This document shows positions 2,878-58,380 of a stretch of DNA of 64,000 nt, one piece after another (positions within the stretch are counted from its first letter, which is position 1; each line of letters opens with the position of its first letter). The notes below the pieces were generated by a model. That model was not told the DNA's origin. It did no database searches and saw nothing but the letters and a program-made list of their open reading frames with translations. This DNA is from Dioscorea cayenensis subsp. rotundata (lineage: Eukaryota > Streptophyta > Magnoliopsida > Dioscoreales > Dioscoreaceae): the NCBI RefSeq assembly GCF_009730915.1, contig NC_052486.1, positions 21,047,589-21,111,588 on the forward strand, in the 5' to 3' direction. Both the position numbers and the translations under genes were made by a program.

Positions 2878-3925
2878 AAACAACACAAGCCAAAGAAAAA
2901 ATCGATGAAACTTTCGAATTTTTGAGTCATACATGTAATCAGAGTTGTTCGGGAGCTGAGAAAAATTCACATGACGATAGTTTTGTGTTTGGTTGACGAG
3001 ATTTGCAAATTTGTATTTGGATATATAATGAAATCAAAATTTCGACTTAAAATTGTTTGTTCTAGCTTTAAATTTTCATCGATAGATTTGGCAGGGACTT
3101 TGTTGACATGACTTGTAAGCTCAAATTTGATGGAGATTAGTTCAATAGCTTGAAATATATGTATATTATTTTTCTTTAAAATATGAAATCAAGTTATAAA
3201 TAAAATTTTAGTTTCGAATTAATCCAATCAGGTTGAATTTTTTTTTTAAATGATTAAAATTTCAAATTAAATTGCATCTGAATCAAACTTTTGAAATTAA
3301 AATAAAGTTGAGCTTGAGAATTTTTTTTTTTTACTCAATTTTGAGATGAGTTCAAAGCTGGGCCTAGCCTGATCAAGCATGGCCCATTTTCAAATCTAAT
3401 TCTAAGTGTAAGCAAACAAATACTGAATCACTATATATATACACATATATTCCCATATTTTTTGTGCCCTTGATAATAGTAAGTTTATATTAATACCACG
3501 TGCTTTATATATATATATATATATTTTTAATAATGTAGATAAACCAAGTTTGGAATTTTTGAACTCTGATTAAACGGAGAATGAAATACCAACTCTCTAA
3601 ATTATAAGGACAAATAACTTTTTTTTTTATGCTTTTGAATTTTTTTATTTGAGAAAACATTCGTAATCAAATGGTAACTTGCTGCAAAGTATTGTTCAGA
3701 TAATATTCATTATAGATCTAATAATATAAAAATACTATTTATTTACTGTATACTGGTTATAATATAGGTCTTTTATAGGATGTGCCATTTTTTTTTATTT
3801 TTTTATAATTACATGGTAAAAACTTATTATTATAATGTTATGGACGTTGATATATTATTTTGGGGTCTCATTATCCTGTAACGCATTGTTATACCAACTT
3901 GTTTAGCTTATCATCTTTATCAAAA

Positions 3926-3960
<35 letters not shown>

Positions 3961-5526
3961 AAGAAGTTGTGAAAAAAAAACAAACAAAACATAGAAAAGG
4001 ATTTGATTCTTCCGAACTGGCTTGTTTGGCCTCTGGTGGGAAATTTAAGGAAACGCTTTGTGTAATAAATGCATATTTTAAACATTAAAATAATATTTTT
4101 ATTATGACAAATCTTTAAATATTTAAATATTTTTTTTTCTCAACATTATTGAAAACTCATATTAAATGATTAATTATTATGCTTATTATTTTATTTGCAT
4201 AATCACGTAGTGTCAAAGCGAGTAATTTGTAATATCTTACAAACTGCCTCTACTTAAAGCATACTTTTATCCTTTTGGGCCTTATACTCGTAAACGCCTC
4301 ACATCAGTCTTTTCTACTCTGAAACGAGTCACTTAGTCTTTTTACACTTGAAAATGACCAAATTAGCCCCTCTAATATAAGTACTAGTTGGGTCAATTTT
4401 CAACTTATATTAAATGGACTATTTTGCTATAGTATGTGATTATTATGAGAAGATTTCGAGTGAGTATTTTAAAAAGGCTATGTGTCGACTGCGTAGTATG
4501 ATTAATTTAGATATTATACACTAGGTCCTTGATTGCAATATATGATTTCAAAAATTTTTAAGTGTAAATAAATATTTTTTTTTTTTGAAAAGGAATATTA
4601 TTATTATTTTTAATATAACTAGTTAATATTTAATTTAATAATTCAATTAGACTGCTCAACCGCATGCGCGCATGAATCCAATTTTATATTAAATATTTTT
4701 ATATATGTACCCCTAAAAAGAAAAAAAATCTGAAATTACATATATTCTAGTGAAATTTAGCTTTCAAACATGCTTTAAAAAATTGTATATTCAACTTTTT
4801 AATAATTGAGCGTGGATTATTTTATCAAACCACTAAATTATAAAAACAACATTTTCAAATATGATTTTGCATATTAAAATATAAATTAAATTTATAAATA
4901 TTTATAAATAAACAATTTTAAATATCAACAGTCTCTTAATTTATTGGTTTTAATAGAGTGTTTGTTTTAGAAAAAAAACCGAAAATAAATTCTAAAAATC
5001 ACACAATGTGAGATTAAAACTTTTAATTGTGTTTATTTTATTTCTGTGCATAAATCGCATAAATACTTAGTGCATTTTGTCAATTATTTTATTATTTTAA
5101 TTATTTAAAAAATAATTTTATAAGTTAGACAGTAACCTACTACTTTAAGGTGATACAGTCCTTAATTTTTTATTTTTTTTTTACAAAAATTACATATAAA
5201 AACTCCAAAAAGAAATATTACATTTATTTTTCAAACATTAATTATGCTAATGAATGGCTTAAGGACAAGACAGAATCTTAGATTTTTATTTTTATTTTTT
5301 ATGGTCTATATAAAGTTCAGATTTTTATAGGGCTATATCCGTAAACAACATTAGAAAGAAAAAGGCAAAAATATCATCCGTGCAAGCACCGAATCCAAAA
5401 ATTTCAGAATTTGGTAGGGGTATAAGTGTAAAACAAAAAACTAATAGAGAGGCAAAAAAAATCGTCCGTACGAGCACCGAATCCAAAGGACTGAAGCAAG
5501 TGACCAGATACACTGGTGTTGTTCCT

Positions 5527-40867: not shown

Positions 40868-41459
40868 TAGAAAACTCAGTGTTCTTGATAATTGTGCTGC
40901 AATTTATGAGGATAATATTTAGAAGTCAGGGTTTTTTTTTTCATGCTGAAAATATAAAAGGAAATTAGGACTCTAAATTATAGTTTATATTTCCTTTTTA
41001 TTTCTTTGTAATTAAGTCAAATATTGTGATAAGATATATTTTGAGTAAATATTAAAAATAGAAGATTTGAAATGTAAAATAAGTGAACAAGGCGCCTGTT
41101 GAATGCAGTTTGGTTGAAATTCATATCTCAATTTAAAAGTCAATGTTAATTTAAAGGAAATTAACAAATGATTTTTTTTTTCAGATGCATATAAAACTTA
41201 CAAAAGAGAGTTCAAGACTACAAATAATGACTTACATGGGATGTGAATACAGTATTTCCCACAATGAACAATCACCTTGTAAAAAGAAAATCACATAAAT
41301 TTGTGAAATACAACAGAGAGTTTTCTCTGCCGTCGTTATTCCTGGTTTGTCGATATTCATTATTACTTGTATGGGCTGTCAATGGGTTCTGGCTCCCTGT
41401 AACAAGATTCACAAATCTTTCAGTTTATGTTCATCGAAAGAAAATTTCAACATCTAATG
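40868..41459. other. Intergenic, downstream of FMO-A
   Basis: No gene. From about 41243 the sequence matches the DNA downstream of FMO-B (about 54150 on; shared CACATAAATTTGT, TTGTATGGGCTGTCA, TTCTGGCTCCCTG), marking the 3' edge of the tandem duplication. Confidence 0.6.
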
Positions 41460-44400
41460 CTAATCATAAAATGCATTATTTCTTGCACATTGTAAAATAG
41501 AAACCTTAGAGAAGGCAGAGATGGATTTCCCGGTCCAATATTCAGTATCCCAGTCATCTCGAAACCCGTCAATGCCAGACTTGAAGCTCTCGATAACTGC
41601 ATGATACATCTGTATTTTCCATTCCTCTATCGATGGCAAACTGACCTCAGAAGCTAACCAATTCAGATACTCAATCTGTAGTTTAAGATCATATGGGTTA
41701 ACTGAGTGATGTCAGTTCAATGAAAATGCGCAGACTAAAATGCTAGTGTTACCAACCTCATTGGGATGAAGACTGTGAGTATGATGTTTAGGTTGCCCTA
41801 CATGCTCTAATTCCTGATAATATGCTTCAATTGATGCCATCAGGGTCTCTTGTGATGATAATGTCACTTTGCCCGATAAAACTTGGGCTATCCACTTGGA
41901 CTGTAGCTCTAATGTCATGAAAAAACTCGCCTGGGCAAAATAGCACAAAATGTTTTAGTCTTTGATTCCCAAAGATTGGATAGCTTCATCAAGAATTGAT
42001 TCATTATTGTTGTCCTTGTCCATGAAATATGAGCTACAGATGGATTTTCAGTTGTTGCATGGAAAATCTTAAATCCTTTTCAATAGGTATTCAAACAAAA
42101 ATCCAAACTGAAGGTGTAGGATTTCAGATGTATCAGCAAACCTTATTAGGTATTCCCACAAAAGAAAGCCAAGGGGCCACGGCGGGAGGGAAAACATGCT
42201 TATATAGAGGTCCGACACGGTTGTCTTCAATGCTTATAAACTCATTTGTTTCTAGGAAAGGGAAATGGTACTCGTAACTGTAAGTAATATCAAATCATGA
42301 GAAAACATAGATTGATTAGAGAATCATTAAGTAATCAAGTAACTAGTTCCATTGTCTAGAGGATTAGGATAGCATACCCTGTGCAATAGAATATACAATC
42401 AGCATGAAGTGATGCACCATCATCAAATTCCACTTCACAATCTTCATGGACACATTTTACCTGTGTGAAAAACACAGATTTTCTTGCATCAGTAGTATGT
42501 TGAGTATGATGTGGTAAATATAATTTACCTCAATTATCTCACAAGCAAGAAAGATAGATTATCTGCACACATCTGTAAGGAACAATAAAGAAGACGCATC
42601 TCAGTAATTGAAAATGTATTTACCATTTTGTGTTGCCAAATATTATCATGTTTATCTAACTTTCCAACTACAGTATCTTTTGCTCTTGAGGTTATATGCA
42701 CTTCCTTCGCTACTTTTGAAATTTCTCTAGAGATATCAAAGGAACTGGCTGACATTCCAATCAATACCACAACCTGTATCATGAATAGAGGGGGAAAAGG
42801 GATAATTTATTGTAAACATCAATTGAGTGTTTCCTCAAGAAGAACATAATAAATACCGACTTTTTGATAGATTTAAGAGTGAATACTAGTATGGCAAATA
42901 GTTAAACATATTAAGTGCTATAATTTTATCAACATTCATCTTGGTGGTCATCATCACGATTACTTAACTTTGCACAAGAATATATGTGTGTGTGTGCATG
43001 TGCGTGCATATTAGCACTGTATTAGACCATTTGAAAAAGATGAGGATACAAGATAATAGCACTGTACTTGAAGAGAAGCTGATTACATTTTACACCAAGC
43101 ACAATTTCCTGCAGGAAATATTTTGCTTCTCATCATGCAGCTACTCAATTGTTTTTATTGTTCACTGTATTAACAATATTCAGAATCAAACTTGGAAAAC
43201 ACTGTGTTGACAGCATGAAATTCAAAATTTTTATATTATAAACTCATGCACTTACCTTTTCTTTTAGCATAAATTTCTTTTTGTGCTTTGTTGGGTACTT
43301 TGTGTTTATTGAGTAGGCAGTTAGGTACTAGGAACAAAAGGAATAAAAATTAGAGTGAATCAGAGTGAAACGAGCAACAAAGCACATTCCCAAAGAAGAG
43401 AACGGTCTAAGCACAGACGTGCAGATCATTGTCAGGGAGAGATTGAAAAGCATAGCCTAAACAGTCTTTCTTCTCAGAGCACAATTGTGCTTAAAGAGAA
43501 TAGATGTGCTCCTTGGCCGTGCTCATTGCTAAAGTTCCAAAAATCATGAAAAATTCAGTCCCTAGCATGACTGATGCTCCCCTAGAGCATAGCTGTCACA
43601 AGATTTCTTCGCACGCTCGGTAAGGTTGGTGCCTTACCGAAGGGAGATGGCCAAGGAGGCCAAGCTAGGCCAAAATCCAAGTCCAAAAAAAGTTGATGTC
43701 AGTTCGATCGTCTGAGCGGTGCGCGGGACGCACACATGATGTGGTAAATTATATTTACCACATCATACTCAACATACTACTGATGCAAGAAAATCTGTGT
43801 TTTTCACACAGGTAAAATGTGTCCATGAAGATTGTGAAGTGGAATTTGATGATGGTGCATCACTTCATGCTGATTGTATATTCTATTGCACAGGGTATGC
43901 TATCCTAATCCTCTAGACAATGGAACTAGTTACTTGATTACTTAATGATTCTCTAATCAATCTATGTTTTCTCATGATTTGATATTACTTACAGTTACGA
44001 GTACCATTTCCCTTTCCTAGAAACAAATGAGTTTATAAGCATTGAAGACAACCGTGTCGGACCTCTATATAAGCATGTTTTCCCTCCCGCCGTGGCCCCT
44101 TGGCTTTCTTTTGTGGGAATACCTAATAAGGTTTGCTGATACATCTGAAATCCTACACCTTCAGTTTGGGTCCCCTAGAGCATAGCTGTCACAATATTTC
44201 TTCGCACGCTCGGTAAGGTTGGTGCCTTACCGAAGGGAGATGGCCAAGGAGGCCAAGCTAGGCCAAAATCCAAGTCCAAAAAAAGTTGATGTCCGTTCGA
44301 TCGTCCGAGCGGTGCGTGGGACGCACACATGATCGAGGATCCTAGCCAGGAATGCCGAGCAAGTATCACATGGGCCGGTGTTACGTTTGACCGAGAGCTT

Positions 44401-47400
44401 GCCAAGCAGCGCACAGGGAGTGATGAGCGTGACCGAGGAACCTTGACCGAGAATGATCGTGATCGAGGGGAAAGGCCGAGGGGGCCGAAGATTGGCTAAG
44501 TATTGGCCGATCACCCGAGTCAAGCGTAAGCACCGATATTGTATTGTCGGTCAGCTTGATCGGGCGGGGCGTGAGAGGGCTCTTGCCCAGCTATGAGCCG
44601 AGACAACATATATAGGCGTGACCTAGCCCGAGACATGGGTAAAGACATGGAGTGGCATGGCCCAAGGAGTGGGCAAGGCATGGCACGACATGACCCAAGG
44701 CATGGGCATGACTTGACATGGCATGGCCCAAGGTGTGGGCGTGGCATGGCCCAAGGTGCGGGTCACATCGGTATGACGCGAACGGCAGGGCTGAAACAGG
44801 AGGCATGATGCGGGCTGACGCTAGTAGTACGGCCGGTATGGGCAAGAGAGGTTATCTCTTTGGCTCTTTGCCTTTGCCTATAAAAGGGGATGAAGAGCAA
44901 TGGGAGAAGATCATCTTGAGCTTCCTTGGAGAGACGGATTTCTCCCTTAGAGTTCTTGATCCTTTGATCCTTGGTGGGTTATTGGGCATCCCTTGGTCCA
45001 GAGTCTTAGGGAGGTTAAGACTTTGGGCTACCTTCATCCTTTGGGGGTTGGGTAAAGGGCATGGCCGGTGTTGTTAAGGCTCATGGTGTAACCTTGACTT
45101 CATTCTAGAGAGTTTAAGTTTTTCTCTCTTATCTCTGGTTCTTTCCTTTCTTGTTTCCTTGTCTCGTGGGTGTGGTTGCTTGTATCATTGCTTGTAGGGG
45201 CACAGAAGTGCAATCCTTGGACTTGGGATGGGTTGGTGCACGCGGTGCGTAGCCAATCGCCACACGGGTCGAGTGACGCTCGGTCAGTCCCATGACAATA
45301 GCCATGCTTCTTCAGAAAACGGGTATGCTTTTTCCTTTTTTTTGTACTTTGTTTTCATTTTTAATAAAAATAGCAGGTCATTATAACAAGGAAGATCCTT
45401 ACCCACCACGAATTGATGTAGAAGCGATAGAGAGGCGAAGACAGTTCCCAGTCTATGAAGCACGGACACGCCAATCTCCTCGACTTACCGGTGTCTGACG
45501 TGAACACGCCGTTGACACAATCAGACACGGTGTTTGACACTCTTGCTACCAAGGCAGCCGCCATCGCTATCAAAGCCCTCATTGCCGCCACGGTTACTTC
45601 TTTTGTTGAAAGGTCAAAGAAGTTGGGCTCTTAGCTGGGTCTTAGGCTTGCAGTGGTTGGGGTCATAGGCTTTGCCGACATGGGGCTTGTGGGAGGATCG
45701 GAAAAAAGAGGGAGGTGATGAAAGGTGGAGAAAAGGATGATGGTTGTGGGAGAGGGGGAGACGGCTATAAGATGAGCTCTCACCTTATAGGCGGAGGCTT
45801 TTTTTTTAAGATCTACAATTTTTCTCTCAAATCCAGGTGATCCTAGCCATTGATTGTTTGTAACACACATGTATGGTCTATGCTAATGGGTCCATTTTCC
45901 TTCTCATCAAATAAGAAGATATGATTTCTAACATACATAAAAATAAATAAATACAAACAAAAACCAAAATAAATTACAAATCCAATAATCTAACATACTT
46001 AAATGGAAAATATAATCATTTGCATTTACAATAAATATTTTACTTAATATATACATTATATATATATATATATATATTTTAAAAAAAATTATTGTCGTGT
46101 CCCACAATACCTGTGTCCTTAATTTTTAGAAATTACCGTGTCGCAGTGTCCGTGTTATGTCGTGTCGCCTTATCTGTATACATGCTTCATAGCTCCCAGT
46201 CGATCCCCCAGGAGCCGCAGTTCTCCATTCCTACTCACCATGAGCAATACGAGAGAGGTTGACTCAACAATGGTTTGGTGAGACCAAAATTATTGATTGA
46301 GAAGTTCTCAAGGAGGTGAGTCTCTGAGGTCCCTCAGCTGTTTAGAGTGGGGGCGTGGTGCTGCATGATTATGATAGATGAGGCCATCTATTGGAAGCTA
46401 ACTCTGGAGGTCCTGACGATGTTTACAATCACCACCGAAGCTCTCAGCTGGAACTGCGTCGACCAGGTTCTAGCTGCATGGTGCATTACACAGATTAAGC
46501 AACACGGACTTTGCAGTGCTCTTGGGGCTCTGACGCCGACTTCACACAAACCCCAAAGTACAAGGTGTTGGATATCTCCCACACCCTCAGTACACCGCAA
46601 GAATGCTGGCAATGGTGGGGCACCGGCAGGACCTACGACCCACGGTGATCGAAGGCCCCTTCCTTACGCTTCCTAATGTTAAGGTATGTTTATACACTCC
46701 TTAATCATTCCATTACAGAGGGGAGATATCACCAAGGTGGTTAGTACACGAGACTTCCTCAACCGGTTAAGTATGGAAGATGGCTTTCCACTCTAGTTGA
46801 GGCATGCAATCACACAGTTCCTTTATTACCAGGTGATGGACCCCTAGGTTGGAGTCATCTTCACCAGTCCTTACATCACAAGGCTTTTCCATGGGATGGG
46901 TCTTCTAGAAGAGACTGATGAGATGAGGGTGGTCGACAAATCTTCCTTGATCACCCTGGAGACATTGAGGTCCACGAGGATGTTGCGCCCAATTTGGACC
47001 TTAAGTGGCATCATCTATAAGATCGTTGATGCAACAACACCCCAAGAGCATGTTCCAACTCCAACCAAGGCCATTTCCTTTTCCCCGACAACAACAGCTC
47101 CTGCCTCACCTTCATCTTCACCATAGCTCCTATTCCATCACCCATAGCAAGAAATCCCCTAGCTCTTGATTTCATCGATCACCTCGCGACAATAGAGGCA
47201 CATCAGAGCTGGGAAGCTTCAGTTCTTCTCCAAATCGCCAAGCACCTCGACATCCAGGTGCCATCTCCACCCCGACCATTTCGCACTCCATGTGAGACAT
47301 CAAGATGAACATTACGGACCTATTAGATGGCGACAACACTGAGAGTGCGGATTTTTTATCACTTCGCCAGTTTTTGTATTATTTTATTATAATATAATTC

Positions 47401-50400
47401 TCTAAATAGTCCCTTTACTTTTTCAAATTTACCTTTTGTCCCTCACTTTAAATTGTAACCTTTTAGTCCCTCTACTATGTTTAAATGAGTCATGTCAGTC
47501 TCCCTTTTTGAGGGTTTAGGGTTTAGGGTTTAAGGGGGCTGACATGGCTAAATTAAAAGTGTAGAGGGATGAAAAGGTAACAATTCAAAGTAAAAAGATT
47601 AAAAGAGTAAGTTCGAAAAAGTAGAGGGACTATTTAGGGAGTTATACCTTTTGTTATATTATACTTGTGTTTTATTTTCATTTTACATCGCACTTATACA
47701 GTTAGCAAGGAGATTCCCCATCCAAACTATTTTTTCATCTCTTTTGTAGTTTTTACTTTCATATTTCATATTTCATATTTCGTATTTTTTTATTTTATTC
47801 TCTTTCCTTTCTTGAGCTTCACTTGTGTACTTTCAGTACTTTTTTATTTTATTCTTTCCTTTCTTGAGCTTCACTTGTGTACTTTCAGTACTTCTCAGGA
47901 TTGAATTGTGGAATTGTCTAACATTGGATACTTGGAATTAGATCCCATGTCGAGAATATCACCAACAACTCCTCGTGTTCAAGGCGGGTCTTTCCTTGTT
48001 GTTATGTTCCTAGCAAGAGTGTCAGCCAGTTCCTTGAGTTTCATTCTTGCGAACGTACTCCCGGGAACTCATGAGTGGCGACAGCTGCAGTATCGGACTC
48101 CACTACTCGTAAGCAGGGCACGCCATCCGACTTACAGCCATCAATGCCCGCCTGTCTGTTAAAAAAAAAGAGCCCTTAGCGCCCCGGGATAGGAGTGGGG
48201 GACGGCCCGCCGCAATCTGACGGTACCACCCATCCTACCCTACTACCTATAGGGGGCCGTCCGATATAATCTACCCCTCTTCGATTTCCTTGCTTTGCCC
48301 TGTTTTCATTAAAGACCTCAAGAAAGTCCCACCCTTTTTTCCCCTTCATGTTTTTTTTTTCAATTATTTTGCATGCATCGTGTACATTGGGGACAACATA
48401 CCATTCAAGTGTGAAGGAGGGATTTATTTTTGAATGGATATATTATTATGATGAGTGTAGACCCATGGGCCATGGCAGCCTATGATATTCAGCTTGAGAA
48501 TTTTTAGTGTAGGAAGACAATAGTGCAAGTGCATATTTTTGAACTTGGAGTTTCATCTTCATTCGGCAACCTACATTATTTTGAGCATGAAATCCTAACT
48601 GTTTTGCAACTTGTTCACTTAGGGATGATCCTCGCTGGGTTGACCATTAGTGAGTTATAAAAAAAAAAGTTAAATCGAAATAAAAAATGGGCAATCAGAT
48701 TCTTTATGAATGTCCTACATGAAAAATTGTAATAAAAAGATGGTAGAAAGAGCTATTGCCTTTAAAGAATAAAAGCTGCTCTTAAATAGTTGGATTGTGT
48801 GCATTACAAGTGTGCACTTGATATCCTACGGAGGGAAAAAGCTGCCTCAAAGATGTATGAAGCTACTACCTAATAAATTGAGCTTAGAGTCTGTTTACGT
48901 TAAGCAAATAAGGTCTATAATAGGTTGGACTTGAGTCAACACGGGGAACATTGGCCAGGGTTTGCACACACACGTGGTGAGCCTTGATATTAGGTAAAGC
49001 ATAATTTTCTTAAAACCTCATTGTCACTTAACACTCTGTTTCTTCTACGCACAAGAGAATCCCATTTATTTCTAGGTCAAATGTTATACAAGCATCAATT
49101 ATTTCGTATTTTGTATTTCTTTACTTGAGAACAAGCACAAGCTTAAGTATGGGTTTTTTGATGAGGGCATGAAATACATATTTTTCATATTGTAAGCTTA
49201 TGGACTTAGCTTGTCTTTTAACATAAATTTCTTTATGTTTGTGCTATGTTGGGTATTTTGTGCTTAGTGAGCAGGGAATTAGATACCAGGAACCAAAAAA
49301 AAAAAAAAATGAAAATTAGAGTGAATTAGAGTGAATCGAGCAACAAAGCACATTTACAGATAAGAGCATGGTCCAAGCATGGTTGTGCTTAAGGTGTGTA
49401 GATTACTGTCGCAGACAAATTGAACAGCACAACCCAAGCACAGACTTCCTGCTCAGAGCATTACAGTGCTTAAAGAACATGGGCGTGCTTCTTGGCTGCG
49501 TTTATTATTGGAGTTCCAAAAATCACAAAGATTTGAGTCCTAAGTGCTGCCAACAACCAGTACGGGTCAAACACATTTTAAGAATGGTCATGCACTATTT
49601 TTTTTTACCTACAGTATAAAGCTCGACAACTAAGGTTTTGTTAAATCCAGTCACCAATTTAAAGGTTTTGGCAAGAATAGCTTTCAAAGAATTTCCATTC
49701 AAGTAGAAGATAACTAATGAAGCCTATAAGCTTTTCTTCAGTAACTCAAAGTGCGGAGCTTTAAGATTGATCAATTTTGTCTACATGATGATTTTTAAAG
49801 CATTTTGAGCAGTTCCACCTTTTTAACAGCTTAAGTATTGAATAATAGTATCCTGCTCATCTAAGAAGCCTCAGAAATTAGTTACTACAACTTTCACAAG
49901 TTCTTCTCACCAATGATGCATTGACATGCACATATTTGGGACTGCCATATCAATTGGAGCTTAAAACTGCTTTATGTCATAACATCACTATCATTTTACA
50001 GGAATGAAAAAGGAATTATTCAAGTGGTATTTTTCTAGTGTTTCATAAAATTTTCCCTACTATTATCTTATGCAAAAAGATCAAGAGACAGCTCAAAATA
50101 CCTGGTCCCTAAAAGGCTCAGGAATGCGATAATTGTGGCTGTGTATTTGCTCGCCACGCCATTTATCAATGCCTGTTGCATATTGTAATGCTTAAGTTCT
50201 AACATCCAAAACCATTTATGACAACTACCATGTTAAATATCATAACAAGATTTCACTTAGACCATAACAGATGCAAGGGGGAAACAAACTATGACATGTG
50301 AATTTGAAACCATGTAAAGCTTAAGTTTTTTTTTTCTCTTTCTTTTCACCTCTTAATCTTTGCCTTTTTCTTAACATCATGAACATTATATAACAACTTA

Positions 50401-51027
50401 AAAAAAATAATCACAGTATATTTTAGTTTTTTTTAAGATAATTTTCATACCTTTTACCATAAATAAGATTAAAAAAAGCAACTAAAGAATCAAGAACATC
50501 CTTCCAAGTTCCAACTCACCTGGAATGTCAGCGATCCTCGGCACGGAGTAATGCCCGTTGGCGACGACCACCGCCTCAAACCTTTCCTCCGCCACCGATC
50601 CATCATCATTCCGCCACTCCACGCTCCACTCGCCGCCGTCCCTCGCCAACCAAACCCTAACCACCTCCGCACCAAACCGAACCATCTCCAAAACCCCAAA
50701 ATCCCTCCCGAAACCCTCAAGGAAAGCAAGCACTTCCTCATGCGCCGGGAACGCCCGGGGATCGACGAAACTCTCCGATGGCCCAGGAAACGGGTAATCG
50801 AGGAAACCCATCAGCTGGCGAGGGAGATTGGTGCGCAGCGAGCGGTATAGGCTCCCGTGGACGGCCACCCGATCGGAGTCGGTGGAGGGATCGTAGACCC
50901 ATGTGCCGCCAACGCGGGTAGACTTCTCGAAGACGGTGACCTCGTGGCCCTCGCGGCGGAGCTCCCGGGCGGCGACCAAACCACCAGGTCCGGCTCCGAT
51001 CACTGCCGTTTTCACCGATCGAGCCAT
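41460..51027 (-). CDS. Flavin-containing monooxygenase FMO-A (GS-OX-like)
   Basis: Seven exons in transcription order: 51027-50520, 50172-50102, 42773-42624, 42460-42378, 42277-42142, 41930-41757, 41675-41460, giving 445 residues with all phases closing. Plant class FMOs use FAD and NADPH to oxygenate S or N atoms; GS-OX members act on glucosinolates, and this substrate is unknown. Motifs are the FAD site GAGPGG (residues 11-16), the FMO signature in the form WRGKQIHSHNY, the NADPH loop GMSASS and CTGYEYHFPF. Introns match those of FMO-B, except that intron 2 is 7.3 kb because of nested insertions. The C-terminus runs 16 codons beyond the FMO-B stop owing to changes at the stop codon. Intron 2 also holds an inverted copy of exons 4-5. 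Confidence 0.85.
42103..42529. repeat. Arm 1 of a 427 bp perfect inverted repeat (FMO-A exons 4-5)
   Basis: This native segment of FMO-A runs from intron 3 through exon 4, intron 4 and exon 5 into intron 5. Its reverse complement occurs at 43743-44169 with no difference found in a base-by-base comparison. The spacer is 1213 bp and contains exon 3. Confidence 0.95.
43578..43740 (+). repeat. Direct repeat, left copy (partial LTR plus flank)
   Basis: 163 bp matching 44171-44333 with four substitutions. It consists of a 16 bp flank ending in ATAGC followed by the first 147 bp of the solo LTR. It stops abruptly at the inverted FMO segment. Confidence 0.9.
43743..44169 (+). pseudogene. Inverted, promoterless copy of FMO-A exons 4-5
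   Basis: 427 bp identical to the reverse complement of 42103-42529. Exon 4 maps to 43812-43894 and exon 5 to 43995-44130, in sense orientation on the + strand, with intron 4 and its splice sites kept. Because the intron is present, this is a DNA-level copy, not a retrocopy. It lies antisense within intron 2 of the donor gene. Two extra bases on the left and one on the right separate it from the flanking direct repeats. It also closely resembles FMO-B (about 1 difference in exon 4 and about 5 in exon 5). Confidence 0.95.
44632..44763. repeat. Minisatellite inside the solo LTR
   Basis: About five to six imperfect copies of a 20-30 bp unit built on GGCATGGCCCAAGG plus a GGGC-containing variable part. 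The array explains the repetitive Met/Pro/His-rich reading frames on both strands. Confidence 0.8.
44878..44886 (+). promoter_or_regulatory. TATA box of the solo LTR
   Basis: CTATAAAAG within GCCTATAAAAGGGG sits about 690 bp into the LTR and 410 bp before its end, a usual U3/R position. Transcription from it would run on the + strand, antisense to FMO-A. Confidence 0.6.
45454..46191. mobile_element. Non-autonomous MULE nested in the LTR element
   Basis: The inverted ends TATGAAGCA and TGCTTCATA are flanked by a 10 bp duplication with one mismatch (45444-45453 GTTCCCAGTC, 46192-46201 GCTCCCAGTC). GACACG-type motifs recur in both subterminal regions. The 738 bp interior has no transposase. Removing it rejoins the retrotransposon sequence around CAGTTCCCAGTCGATCCCCC. 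Confidence 0.75.
46202..47388 (+). pseudogene. Degenerate retrotransposon internal region, gag-like
   Basis: Several broken + strand frames are found, for example one encoding [20 protein letters not shown] (about 46224-46290) and another with [16 protein letters not shown]. The style resembles the N-terminal gag or upstream ORF of plant Ty3/gypsy elements, but no conserved enzymatic motif is seen. Frameshifts and stops make it non-functional. The identification is tentative. Confidence 0.4.
47389..47646. mobile_element. Inverted-repeat element with a telomere-like centre
   Basis: The arms are inverted copies (left CTCTAAATAGTCCCTTTAC, right matching GTAGAGGGACTATTTAGGGA) of about 110 bp. 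At the centre (about 47510-47536) lies GGGTTTAGGGTTTAGGGTTT, the plant telomere repeat sequence. The ends resemble those of the MULE at 12982 (AATTCTCTAAA). No clean target duplication was found. It is nested in the retrotransposon. Confidence 0.6.
47647..49158. other. Retrotransposon 3' internal non-coding region
   Basis: No coding potential was recognised. It contains a duplicated stretch around TTTCTTGAGCTTCACTTGTG (about 47810-47832 and 47862-47884), a GC-rich block at about 48170-48260, and the CATTGGGGACAA motif at about 48386. It ends at the purine run before the 3' LTR. Confidence 0.5.
49159..49628 (+). mobile_element. 3' LTR of the degenerate retrotransposon
   Basis: It begins TGATGAGGGCATGAAATAC and aligns with 43205-43560. 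The end near CTCGACA is approximate. FMO-A intron sequence shared with FMO-B (CAGTCACCAATTTAAAGG) resumes at about 49650. Confidence 0.6.
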
Positions 51028-51642
51028 CGTCGTCGACGTGGCCTTTTAATGGACGCTCTTGGCATGGGCCGAATATAACAAGGTCTTGGGGGCCCACTGA
51101 GCCAACTAATCAGTTCACAGAGTTGGCCCAAGTAAAGAGGTTTAAGTGTTTAAGGTTTAATAATATAAATTTTTTATAAAAATTAAGCTCCATGTGGGGG
51201 AGTGTGGGGACTCATCAACTAGAGAATATTTTTTAGGAGTTATAATTATTAAAATGTTATGAATATTATAAATGAAATGAAAGCCTATTATAGCAAGTAT
51301 TTTGGATAATTAGATCGAATCATTGGAACGAATAAATTATAACGGTTTATTCAAATCCTGAATGCCTATAACTAGCCCCCACTCGTATATTGTATGATGT
51401 AGAAGAAAAGAAGAGATAGATAAGAGGAAAGAAGATAAAGAAATAAATTATAAAGGTGTTTAGTAAATATTCTGCCTTTTATTATTCTCTTTATACTTAT
51501 AATATATTCATGAAAATTTATATATATGTTTACATTTGTGAATAAATTATTAGTTGCTTATACAATATATAAATGTTTATAATATTTTTATTTTTTAAAA
51601 AAAATCATACCAAACAAATTTTTTATTATTAACCATGACAAG

Positions 51643-52317: not shown

Positions 52318-52506
52318 AATAGTTATTACAAGTTAATAATTAATCTAATATAATTTTAAAATATTTATAACTATATTAAATAGCACTTGCAGACATCCAC
52401 GTAGAATTGGGATATGAAAGAAGAGCATCAGGAGAAAAAGGAGACATCCTACTATAATTATGTTTTAACACGAAATAATTAGAAAAAAAATTGTATAAAT
52501 ATTTAT

Positions 52507-53891
52507 GGGGAAAGTTTAAAAAAAAATCTATGTGGTTTTCAGTTTTTGTAAATAAAAGCATGTGTTTTTTTTTTACAATTAAGTACTTTGTGGTTTTTTT
52601 ATTTTTACAAATCAAGGAAAAGCCGTCAACGCCGTCTGTGTTTGCTTACATGGCAGGATAAAACTGACTTTTCAAATAAATTTTTTTCCGGTGCTTATTA
52701 GATTAAGTTAGTTTAAGCCTCTAATTACTATATTGATAAAAATTATGCACAAGAATCAAGTTAGGGCAAATCTACCTGAATCCATGGCTATAATTTGATT
52801 TTTTGGTACTAAGTTCATCAAAACCGAATCGGGAGTACCAAAAGAGAGCGGCAACGCTGATGAGTACCATCGGGTCAGTATCTTCTTCATGGATGTTGAT
52901 CTGATCCTCCAAAAACTCAATCTCCAATTCGCAAGCTCTTGTGTCTCGAAATTCCAACTCATCGTGAGGTAGAGCTTCGATTTCTGATATGGCTTGTCTT
53001 GTCTTAACTGGGAAATTCTGAGATTTAGATGGGAAGAGGAAGGAGAGTAGAAGAAAAAGAATAAGAACGATAGAGGAAGAAGACAAGAGGATTGGAGAAA
53101 ATTATGGCTAAAGATGTCCTTCATTGTATTCCTCATTCGATTATATAGCCATATTAAGAGAATCCTTACAATCATTCCATTTTGGCATTTCCTCAAACAT
53201 GTGTTATGCCAAGATATTCTAGCTAACTGTAACAATCTCACTAACAATCTATGAATGGAAATTACAAATCATTCATTTATTTATTATGTACTAATTAATA
53301 ATAACTAATTACTAATCAGCACTAACTACTCCCATGATGAAGTTTGCGAATTTGGTTTGATTCTCTCCTTTGTTTCTCCTTGTGCTCTGCCTATTGAATA
53401 CATTGTTGTGCTGGGCCCCATCAGGATTGCTTCCCATAACAATTTTCCACATCGTCTCTGGAGAAACCGCATCTAATCCTGAACATCGGCGTTCAAGCCG
53501 AGCTCCTCAATGGGGATGACATCAAGAAGAGTCAAGATTTAAAGGTTCAAATAGTAAAAACTGCCGGAGACCAGCGGATTAAGCAACAACAACCAAATCC
53601 GGCCACAAAGGGTGCAATAATCCATGAGCATCTTGCATCGATGAATCAAAACCGGAGACATCAGGCGAGAGGATGATCTTCATTTTAGTTTAAACCAACT
53701 TATAGTTGGCACAAAAAAAATTATGTGAAAGGTCGCTTTTGCCCCACGTAAGCAAACACAGATGGCGCTGACAACACTTTTCTTTGATTTGCAAAAACCG
53801 AAAAACCACAAAGTACTTAATTGTAGAAAAAAAACCCACGTCTTTATTTGCAAAACCCAAAAACCACATAGATTTTTTTTAAACTTCCCCC
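52507..53891. mobile_element. MULE upstream of FMO-A, possibly carrying captured sequence
   Basis: Inverted ends of about 190 bp (left GGGGAAAGTTT and ATCTATGTGG, right their reverse complements) are flanked by a perfect 9 bp duplication AATATTTAT (52498-52506, 53892-53900). The FMO-B upstream region has one related copy (GATATTTAT, about 58213), the empty site. The interior of about 1 kb is less AT-rich than its surroundings and contains open frames on the minus strand (52756-53247 and, in another frame, 52772-53086 reading a hydrophobic stretch then an acidic helix-like region). Neither frame opens with an ATG at its start and no family was recognised. Confidence 0.8.
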
Positions 53892-54070
53892 AATATTTAT
53901 TTATGCCAATCAGAACATTTTGCATAGGTTAAATGAGTTAAATAAATGGAATAAGAGTTAAGCCCGTGAGAATCAGTTTGATGAGAAAGGCTTTAACATC
54001 CTTAATTATACTATACTAAGTACATCTTAAGCACAAATGGGCCGTTGACTCTCACAATGTTTTGAGATTT

Positions 54071-54459: not shown

Positions 54460-57400
54460 TCAGAGGACAGAGATGGATTTCTTTGTCCAATATTCAGCAT
54501 CCCAGTTGTCCCGATACCCGTCATTGTGAGACTTGAGGCTCTCGATAGCTGCACGATACATTTGTATCCTCCATTCCTCTATTGGTGGCAAACTGACCAC
54601 AGAAGTTAGCCAATTCAGATATTCAATCTGCAGTTAAGATCATATAGGATTAATTTGAGTGATGGCAGTTCAATGAAATTGAGAAGACTAAAATGCAAGT
54701 GTTACCAACCTCATTGGGATGAAGAAAGTGTGTATGATGCTTAGGCCGCCCTACTCGCTCTAATTCCTGATAATACGCTTCAACTGATGCCATCATGGTC
54801 TTTTCTGATGGTAACACCACTTTGCTTGATAAAACATGAGCTATCCACTTGGACTGTAACTGTAACGTTATGTTAAAAATCACCTGGGCATAATAGCACA
54901 AAATGATCAAGTCTTTGACTGCCAAAGATTGGGTAGCTTCACCAAGAATTGATTCATTATGGTTAATCAGCTGTTTGCATGGAAAATCTTTAATCCTGTT
55001 CATAATGTATTTAGACAAAAATCCAAATTTGAAGGTTTAGAATTTCAGATGTATCAGCAAACCTTATTAGGTATTCCCACAAAAGAAAGCCAAGGGGCCA
55101 CAGCGGGAGAGAAAACATGCTTATATAGAGGTCCGACTCGGTTGTCTTCAATGCTTATGAACTCATTTGTTTCTAGGAAAGGGAAATGGTACTTGTAACT
55201 GTAAGCAATATCAAATCATGAGAAAACATAGATTGAGTAGAGAATCATTTGAGTAATCAAGTAACTAGTTCCATCGCCTAGTAGGATTAGCACAGCATAC
55301 CCTGTGCAATAGAATATACAATCAGCATGAAGTGATGCACCATCATCAAATTCCACTTCACAATCTTCATGGACATATTTTACCTGTGTAAAAAACACAG
55401 ATTTTATCGCATCAGTTGCATGTTGTGGTGAATATAATTTACCTCAATTATCTCACAAGTGAGAAAGATTGAATATCTGCACACCTTGATAGGGAACAAT
55501 AAAGGAGACACATATGATTAAACTGAAAGTGTATTTACCATTTTGTGTTGCCAAATATTATTATGGTTATCTAACTTTCCAACTACAGTATCTTTGGCTC
55601 TTGAGGATATATGCACTTCCTTCACTACTTTTGAAATTTCTCTAGAGATATCAAGGGCACTAGCTCCCATTCCAATCAGTACCACAACCTGCATACATCA
55701 TCAAGGGTATAAATAGAGAAAAATAGAAAAAAGGGATCATTTATTGTAAACATTAATTGCATGTTGGCGGCCATCATCATGGTTACTCAACTTTTGCACA
55801 AGAATGTGTGTGTGCACTCGTGTGTGCATATTAACACCAAATTAGAACATTTGAAAAAGCTGAGGATACAAGATAAATAGTGCTGTACTTGACGAGAAGC
55901 TGATTCCATTATACACCAAGTACAATTTCCTGCAGGAAACATCTTGTTTCTCCATGTGCAGCTACTCAATTGTTTTCATTGTTTACTGTATTAACAACAT
56001 TGAGAATCAAACTTGGAAAGCACTATTCTCAAAATGAGATTCTCTTACAGTCACCAATTTAAAGGTTCTGGCAAGGATAGCTTTCAAAGAATTTCCATTC
56101 AAGTAGAAGATAACAAATGCAGCTTACAAGCTTTTCTTGAGTAACTCAAAGTGTGGACCTCTAAGATTGATGAAATTCGTCAATGTGATAGTTCCATCTA
56201 TGTGATAGTTTACAACATTTTGAGCAGTTCCATTCTTTTAGCAGCTTAAGTTTTGAATATCAGTATCCTGCTCATCTAAGATGCTTCAGAAATTAGCTAC
56301 TGCAACTTTCATAAGTTTTTTTTACCATGATGCATTGAACATGCACATATTTGGGACTGGCATATCAATCGGTGCTTAGTAGCTGCCAACATCATAACAC
56401 CACTATCATTGTATAGGAATGAAAACGAATCATTTGAATGGTATTTTCTAGTGTTGCATAAAGTTTTCCCTTCTATTTTCTTATGAACAAAAGATAGAGA
56501 GATGGCTCAAAATACCTGGTCCCTAAAAGGCTCAGGAGTGCGATAATTGTGGCTGTGTATTTGCTTGCCACGCCATTTATCAATGCCTGTTGCATATTGT
56601 AATGCTTAAGTTCTAGTATCCAAAACCATTTATGACAACCACCATGCTAATATATCATAACAAGATTTCACTTAGAACACACACTTAATTAAATTATGAC
56701 AAGTTATTTAAAAAAATAAAAAATCACTCTTCTAACCTTTCCCTCCTGCCAACTCCACCATTACAGTCACCATCTATTGTGCATCATCTATTCTTAATCC
56801 CATCACCAGCAACCAACTCCACCATTGCCAAACTCCTATTTTTATTCATTTCAAGATTTTTTTTTTTTTCTCTCAATCTTTCTCATCCACCTTCTCCTCT
56901 ACAACTATCTTCATACAACCATCTCACTTCCCTTTATCATCCTCCTATTCTTTTTATAATTTCAAATATCTTTGTCATTTTATACCATCAAACAGGAACA
57001 AGCATTTTTCCTCAAAGACAAGATAATCACTCTTCTTTGTTTCCTAAAAAGAGAGGGATATTTTATTCAATACTCAAACCATAAATTTTTTTTTTCCAAA
57101 CAAAATGATACTGAATGTATATTTTGATGAATATATTTCATAGTATATTTTAAGTTTTTAAATAATTTTCATAACTTTTACCATAAATAAATAAGATTAA
57201 AAAAAGCAACTAAAGAATCAAGAACATCTTTGCAACTCACCCGGAATCTCAGGGATTCTCGGCACGGAGAAATGCCCGTTGGCGACCACAACCGCCTCAA
57301 ACCTCTCCTCCGCCACCGATCCATCCTCATTCCTCCACTCCACGCTCCACTCGCCGCCATCCCCCTCCAACCAAACCCTAACCACCTCCGCACCAAACCG

Positions 57401-58380
57401 AACCATCTCCAAAACCCCAAAATCCCTCGCGAAACCCTCAAGGAAAGCAAGCACTTCCTCGTGCACCGGGAACGCCCGGGGATCGACGAAGCTCTCCGAT
57501 GGCCCAGGAAACGGGTAATCGAGGAAACCCATCAGCTGGCGAGGGAGATTGGTGCGCAGCGAGCAGTATAGGCTCCCATGGACGGCCACCCGATCGGAGT
57601 CGGTGGTGGGATCGTAGACCCAGGTGCCGCCGACGCGGGTGGACTTCTCGAAGATGGTGACCTCGTGGCCCTCGCGGCGGAGCTCCCTGGCGGCGACCAA
57701 ACCACCAGGTCCGGCTCCGATCACTGCCGTCTTCACCGATCGAGCCATCGTCGTCGACGTGGCCTTTTAATGGAGTGTTTTCAAGTGGGCTTTATATAGT
57801 ATAGGCCCTGTGGCCCAATAGTCCATTCATGGGGCCCACAGAATTGGCCCAAGTGAAGAGGCTTTACTGTTTGACCCATTTGCACAAGGTTTAATAATAT
57901 AAATAAATTATTTAGAAAACAAAATAATGATCCATGTGGCGATTCATCATCATTCATCAATGGGAGAATATTTTAGGAATTATAATTATTGTAAATATTT
58001 ATGATATTTTTTATTTGAATAAATTTTATAAAACGAATTTTTTTATTATGATTAATTATTACAAGCTAAAAACATAATTAACTAAAATATTTTTAAAAAT
58101 GCCCTGGTTAGCCTTCTATTAATAGTTATTACAAGTTAATAATTAATCAAATATAATTTTAAATTTTTTATATTAATGTTCTAACATGTAACAATTTTTT
58201 AAAAAATGTATAGATATTTATTTATGCCAATTAAAGCATACTGCATAGATTGAATAAATGGAACAAGAGTTGAACCTGTGAGAATTAGTCTGATGAGAAA
58301 GGGTTTGACATCCTTAATTATACAAGCCACATCTTAAGCACAAATGGCACCATGATTCTCACCATGTATGGAACAAGACA
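54090..58380. repeat. Tandem duplication unit B (FMO-B and flanks)
   Basis: Homologous over its length to unit A (about 41230-54070), which is longer only because of insertions. Shared upstream text near 58220-58365 and 53895-54050 includes TTTATGCCAAT, GATGAGAAAGG and ACATCCTTAATTATAC. Confidence 0.75.
54460..57748 (-). CDS. Flavin-containing monooxygenase FMO-B (GS-OX-like)
   Basis: Seven exons in transcription order: 57748-57241, 56586-56516, 55688-55539, 55383-55301, 55198-55063, 54883-54710, 54627-54460, giving 429 residues. All splice sites are GT-AG and phases close. It is the compact tandem paralogue of FMO-A, with the same intron positions and very similar sequence; exons 1 to 6 have the same lengths. 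Motifs are GAGPGG (FAD, residues 11-16), WRGKQIHSHNY (FMO signature), GMGASA (NADPH loop) and CTGYKYHFPF. The final Gly usual in the plant NADPH loop is replaced by Ala. The stop codon lies two codons after SIS, so the C-terminus is shorter than in FMO-A. No signal peptide is seen; GS-OX-type FMOs are thought to be cytosolic or ER-associated. The substrate is unknown. Confidence 0.9.

Follow-up and report, generated by a model that had tools for sequence, protein, structure and literature searches.

The window, which is the whole 64,000-nucleotide stretch of Dioscorea cayenensis subsp. rotundata DNA analysed here, contains two FMO genes, FMO-A and FMO-B, both modelled with GT/AG introns and open frames and both read from the minus strand:

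41460..51027, minus strand: FMO-A gene, seven exons, 445 codons with no internal stops
50520-51027, 50102-50172, 42624-42773, 42378-42460, 42142-42277, 41757-41930 and 41460-41675, minus strand: the FMO-A exons in order
54460..57748, minus strand: FMO-B gene, seven exons, 429 codons, a possible target in trans

The 3' end of the last FMO-A exon is a best guess, as homology between the two genes extends downstream of it. FMO-A matches the Pfam FMO-like family PF00743 (E 4.2e-58; 197.5 bits, with a curated cutoff of 22), and its best PDB chain is 6wpu_A, a flavin-containing monooxygenase (E 1.3e-155) that we take to be from garlic. The surrounding FMO cluster has at least six full or partial copies on contig C16, at about 21.089 to 21.203 Mb. 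They include a third copy, FMO-C (locus L002), whose frame is open over the 1,287 bases compared; a degenerate copy, FMO-D (L001), with no exon 2 match and with irregular exon 3 and exon 5 borders; and two loci (L003 and L004) with matches to exons 5 to 7 only, within the 9.9 kb fetched for each. Pairwise dN/dS ratios are about 0.43 for A-B, 0.41 for A-C, and 0.36 for B-C, and since the FMO-A and FMO-B frames are also open, nothing in these sequences appears to mark FMO-A as a silenced or decaying gene, though the event described below may be too recent to show.

The second intron of FMO-A (42774-50101) carries an antisense copy of exons 4 and 5 of the same gene, and the copy and its donor form a long perfect inverted repeat:

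42103..42529, minus strand: donor arm, comprising the 3' part of FMO-A intron 3 (69 nt), exon 4, intron 4, exon 5, and 39 nt of intron 5
43743..44169, plus strand: inverted copy of FMO-A exons 4-5 within FMO-A intron 2, antisense in the FMO-A transcript

The two arms are exact reverse complements over all 427 bases, with the match ending abruptly at either side; a chance origin is ruled out, and the structure is real in this assembly. Exons 4 (42378-42460) and 5 (42142-42277) lie entirely within the arm, as does intron 4, and the loop between the arms is 1,213 nt. A repeat search extends the arms to 430 nt (42103-42532 and 43740-44169, with a 1,207-nt spacer), within which blastn finds one mismatch. 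Using the 430-base arm to search the whole assembly (584.2 Mb, 2,249 contigs) returns eight matches, with all eight candidates scored: the two arms themselves, five others on the same contig (FMO-B at 92%, 21163186 at 92%, 21129719 at 90%, and two 93-base matches at 91% and 89%), and one of 67% on contig C4. The original prediction had described a 427-bp perfect inverted repeat, an antisense copy of exons 4 and 5 (with intron 4) inside intron 2 of a minus-strand gene, a transcript in which the antisense arm comes first and the sense exons some 1.2 kb later, and close similarity of the arm to FMO-B, and all of these hold with the gene models, exon borders, and matches given above. A scan of the whole window (seed 16, minimum 80 nt) finds four inverted pairs, namely the FMO-A pair, two cross-matches of the copy to FMO-B, and a 128-nt pair at 83%, with no second perfect inverted repeat among them.

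Alignment of FMO-A with FMO-B places the inverted copy inside a block of repeat DNA gained by FMO-A, in which the following elements can be distinguished:

43204..49647, no strand assigned: nested repeat DNA of about 6.4 kb in FMO-A intron 2, absent from FMO-B intron 2
44187..45297, plus strand: solo LTR of 1,111 bp, with ATAGC on either side
43578..43740, plus strand: d1, one copy of the direct repeat, with 16 nt of flank followed by the initial 147 nt of the LTR
44171..44333, plus strand: direct repeat copy d2, flank plus LTR start, continuous with the remaining LTR and differing from d1 at 4 of 163 positions
43736..43749, plus strand: junction 1, ATGATGTGGTAAAT, a 14-bp direct match to 42506-42519
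44170..44170, plus strand: junction 2, one base (G) unexplained by either side

FMO-C lacks the gain and aligns to FMO-B across that place. The block also contains an LTR-like pair (43205-43561 and 49159-49540, 74% identical) whose sequence recurs in the genome, with at least 41 matches including itself (40 of 45 candidates scored); the best full-length match in that set, apart from its own partner, is 73% identical. The solo LTR belongs to a dispersed family with at least 57 matches (40 of 99 candidates scored), and among the matches listed, copies outside the window are at most 86% identical. Among these, the eight longest at other sites have their first aligned base at query positions 12 to 27 and their last at 1127 to 1136, where the LTR itself runs from 17 to 1127. 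A shorter match, on contig C9, starts at query position 3 and has a loosely similar CCCTAGA stretch upstream, which is taken as chance. A short telomere-like GGGTTTA run is present elsewhere in the intron 2 insertion (47510-47533), within a self-complementary stretch at 47393-47646.

The inverted copy is bracketed by the 163-bp direct repeat, which holds not only the first part of the LTR but also 16 bp that lie outside it, with the LTR ends and the ATAGC duplication marking the border. The same flank would not accompany a second insertion of the LTR, and the upstream sequence differs in all 12 of the other LTR copies fetched (12 of the 57 matches, picked for reaching the LTR start), so the repeat is a duplication made locally around an insert of some 430 bp rather than a second insertion of the element. 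At junction 1, the ATGAT is also LTR sequence at 44329-44333 and recurs at 42506-42510, and the junction leads into the quasi-palindrome GGTAAATTATATTTACC, which opens with GGTAAAT in the gene. The whole of junction 1 is found at one place, with five other matches covering one half only. Junction 2 has neither microhomology nor overlap; microhomology with a fold-back signature is present at one of the two junctions.

The direct repeat shows how the inverted copy arose, and judging from the sequence, a recent templated insertion, through break repair or template switching, is very probably its origin. An identifiable template lies nearby, matching at 427 of 427 bases, and the copy must have been templated by DNA because it keeps intron 4. 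A processed retrocopy is rejected, since the copy retains intron 4 together with portions of introns 3 and 5. Intron 2 of FMO-B and of FMO-C is without the insertion; no structure-free allele or relative is found among the eight arm matches in the assembly, and the putative ancestral site is reconstructed from the direct repeat. A break, or a fork that had stalled, where the solo LTR begins in FMO-A intron 2 would have been repaired by copying, with the LTR end ...ATGAT priming on the ATGAT at 42506 in the same gene, about 1.2 kb off, and a few bases being copied in direct orientation. On the simplest reading, synthesis would then have reversed in the quasi-palindrome GGTAAATATAATTTACC (42513-42529), with about 420 bp copied back to 42103, before the new strand was joined up again with the flank of the LTR, gaining one base in the process; the 163 bp of flank and LTR would have been doubled on either side, the outcome expected of a staggered break or of a fork restart. 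Filler synthesis at a staggered break and a replication fork switch both appear compatible with the sequence, and a plainer reading of junction 1 as end joining with a 2-base filler (GT) is possible.

The minus-strand pre-mRNA would contain, in order, the antisense arm, the end of intron 2, exon 3, and the sense exons, and the suggestion that it could fold into a 427-bp duplex looping out exon 3 is upheld by structure prediction. In a 2,267-nt pre-mRNA, all 427 arm bases are predicted to pair with their mirror bases, at a minimum free energy of -1134.9 kcal/mol compared with -447.3 kcal/mol when the arm is left out (1,840 nt), a calculation that leaves out time and proteins, as intron 2 may be gone before exons 4 and 5 are available. 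The predicted duplex covers both splice sites of exons 4 and 5, and exon 3 (42624..42773, minus strand) retains both of its own in the predicted loop, where they are partly paired locally. Like a hairpin siRNA locus, FMO-A thus has a long near-perfect inverted repeat that is predicted to fold as one RNA. The GT/AG borders of intron 2 lie outside the arms, and because the antisense arm is intronic, splicing of intron 2 would remove it, such that the hairpin can form only in the unspliced pre-mRNA. A templated insertion that has left FMO-A with a hairpin-capable pre-mRNA is, as a whole, a likely account of the locus.

How this structure might act can be set out as a series of steps, and we infer all of those after transcription. 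FMO-A pre-mRNA with intron 2 still present would form the 427-bp perfect hairpin with the exon 4 and 5 splice sites buried; most transcripts would probably shed the antisense arm through splicing and stay normal, and a minority would be expected to become double-stranded RNA diced by Dicer-like enzymes to siRNAs or, alternatively, yield mis-spliced or circular exon 3 products. The placement of exon 3 in the loop may favour back-splicing, giving three possible outcomes for the pre-mRNA: normal splicing, dicing, and exon 3 circularisation. Among the 407 21-mer windows of the arm, exact matches number 182 in mature FMO-A, 97 in FMO-B, and 100 in FMO-C, and siRNAs, if made, could therefore act on all three genes. 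A silencing role for the hairpin is physically plausible under this model; siRNAs at detectable levels are a real possibility, if one that falls somewhat short of an even chance.

The strongest competing view is that the repeat is a functionally silent scar with the same repair origin, in which intron 2 is always spliced in time, nothing is diced, and FMO-A is expressed normally. With the arm inside intron 2 and the GT/AG borders beyond the arms, with open frames and dN/dS below 1, and with 6.4 kb of repeat sequence already carried by this intron, such an outcome is nearly an even prospect; against it, the perfect duplex, 427 bp long and closed by a loop of 1.2 kb, is predicted to be very stable, and small RNAs are produced from another plant inverted repeat that is comparable in length and spacing (PMC3534067). 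A regulatory variant of the hairpin reading, in which the speed of intron 2 removal sets the balance between normal mRNA and hairpin siRNAs dampening FMO-A, FMO-B, and FMO-C, is decidedly less probable and would be unlikely as a description of the locus. If true, it would represent a newborn hairpin locus caught right after a single DNA repair event.

The age of the copy can be judged from sites that distinguish the FMO genes. There are 15 FMO-A-specific substitutions in the 418 columns comparable among FMO-A, FMO-B, and FMO-C, and as all 15 are in both arms and none separates the arms, the inverted copy is, on this comparison, apparently young. The arms differ at 0 of 427 positions (upper 95% bound near 0.7%), which at a plant substitution rate of about 7e-9 per site and year corresponds to an upper bound on age of roughly half a million years. 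The original prediction attributed the identity to a very recent event or to ongoing gene conversion, and the shared substitutions favour the former. For the latter, an older copy would have been held identical through conversion between the arms, a reading that draws on the direct repeat, where 4 of 163 positions differ (Fisher p 0.0057 relative to the arms). Comparison of the four sites with the 12 LTR copies assigns two changes to each repeat copy (at the first site all 12 have G, and at each of the other three 10 of 12 have the C taken as ancestral). The ages of the arms and the direct repeat disagree unless conversion has acted on the arms, the LTR mutates faster, or chance is responsible. 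However, p rises to 0.075 once both CpG transitions are left out, LTRs are as a rule methylated and quicker to mutate, and a single recent event is simpler, leaving gene conversion as a rather doubtful explanation.

Three further explanations fare considerably worse. That the structure is a selected self-silencing device, kept because intron 2 splicing gates a hairpin that tunes the FMO cluster, would fit the exact 21-mer overlap with all three genes, but nothing shows selection, and a single gene in a single assembly has the structure, with FMO-B and FMO-C lacking it, so this is very unlikely. An assembly or sequencing artefact, with a chimeric or fold-back read built into the contig, would account for the 100% identity of the arms, and yet a palindromic read would give adjoining arms rather than a fragment between duplicated LTR starts, junction 1 has 5-bp microhomology and a fold-back signature, d1 and d2 differ by two derived changes apiece (a pattern that consensus errors could mimic), and no structure-free duplicate contig is among the eight arm matches (assemblies often drop such contigs); together these make an artefact highly improbable. 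Capture of the fragment by a transposon (Pack-MULE, Helitron, or similar) and its delivery to intron 2, in spite of the repeat-rich surroundings, is hardly tenable given that the fragment has neither terminal inverted repeats nor a short target duplication at its ends, is flanked instead by a 163-bp direct repeat that includes non-LTR flank, was donated by the same gene 1.2 kb away, and has arm matches confined to the two arms, five sites in the FMO cluster of the same contig, and the 67% match on C4.

The templated insertion has relatives among repair products described elsewhere, as far as the available portions of the cited articles go. The second intron of the maize p2/p1 genes contains filler DNA from two nearby sites (PMC2686159), and resembles FMO-A in the copying of nearby DNA from more than one template, the stray unexplained base, and the setting, intron 2 of a gene that belongs to a duplicated cluster. 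The FMO-A insert differs in being inverted and 427 bp long rather than 50 bp, in being bracketed by a 163-bp tandem duplication, and in having no evident deletion, whereas one is present at p2/p1; the filler sizes quoted for maize, 1 to 131 bp, fall short of the FMO-A copy, which speaks against the insertion reading (PMC2686159). Opposed nicks give rise to tandem duplications, with hints of this in humans and plants (PMC8355091), and similarly leave a duplicated stretch either side of a joint in a model offered for human and plant insertions; in the accessible text these duplications are short (under 100 bp) and have no long copied insert, compared with 163 bp plus an insert at FMO-A (PMC8355091).

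The hairpin itself invites comparison with natural inverted-repeat siRNA loci, of which the chalcone synthase and PAI repeats are examples. In soybean, a 621-bp inverted repeat whose arms are about 1,000 nt apart is associated with about 400 unique small RNAs, mapping within it or close by, and 40 of them match exons 2 to 4 of an aquaporin gene perfectly (PMC3534067); in Arabidopsis, siRNA02 comes from an inverted duplication whose loci are separated by about 2.1 kb, and it is reduced in dcl3-1 (PMC350667). Such loci share with FMO-A gene-derived arms of hundreds of base pairs, a spacer of about 1 kb, and related genes as targets, the siRNAs of FMO-A being putative. FMO-A is further set apart by having working exons as one arm and its own intron as the site of the other, with a hairpin that splicing can destroy. 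Intron-derived siRNAs, termed sirtrons, were reportedly described by Chen et al. in 2011. The sirtron hairpin lies within one intron, and FMO-A, while also having an intronic self-complementary stretch in a host gene, is not a sirtron, as one arm covers exons 4 and 5. Complementary sequences flanking an exon that keeps its splice sites are likewise a feature of exon circularisation (PMC8516420, PMC6769675); in FMO-A the downstream complementary stretch includes exons and the exon 3 circle is putative, unlike the cases in the available parts of those articles. The combination of these parts, with an antisense arm in an intron of its own gene, was not met among the literature matches listed in a non-exhaustive survey, and a search on FMO, inverted repeat, and Dioscorea returned nothing related, judged by title.

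The component parts of the FMO-A structure are of known kinds, and this is not a new kind of system; what is added to the original prediction is the 163-bp direct repeat around the copy, combining 16 bp of flank with the opening 147 bp of an old solo LTR. New plant hairpin RNA genes are thought to begin as inverted duplications of gene pieces, and to our knowledge the founding event is rarely seen intact. At FMO-A the sequence still records both junctions, the donor, and the probable template switch, and copy and donor remain identical, making the locus an attractive natural experiment: if siRNAs are made, one repair event would have turned a gene into a regulator of its own family, and if none are made, the locus shows how well splicing shields a plant gene from its own antisense sequence.

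Other inverted repeats are scattered through the cluster. Scanning the four paralogue loci (L001 to L004, 9,901 bases each) for the same inverted layout finds one inverted pair in L001, three in L003, and none in L002 or L004. The L001 pair (3770-4013 and 4599-4842; 244 nt, 90%) is in FMO-D intron 1 in a stretch absent from FMO-B, falls outside the FMO-B-aligned parts of the locus except for 7 bases, has a transposon-like look, and is probably an inserted transposon. Those of L003 (2191-4192) are nested repeats of 325, 199, and 116 nt (75 to 84%) adjoining the partial FMO copy. An Rfam search of 41000-51100 gives no matches at gathering scores. Between FMO-A and FMO-B, the 128-nt pair (52495-52622 and 53777-53904, 83%, about 1.15 kb apart) looks like transposon ends. 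The solo LTR at 44187-45297 has a TATA-like stretch, CCTATAAAAGG, near 44880 (read by eye) in plus orientation, and if the element were active, transcription would head for exons 2 and 1 of FMO-A, in antisense to the gene.
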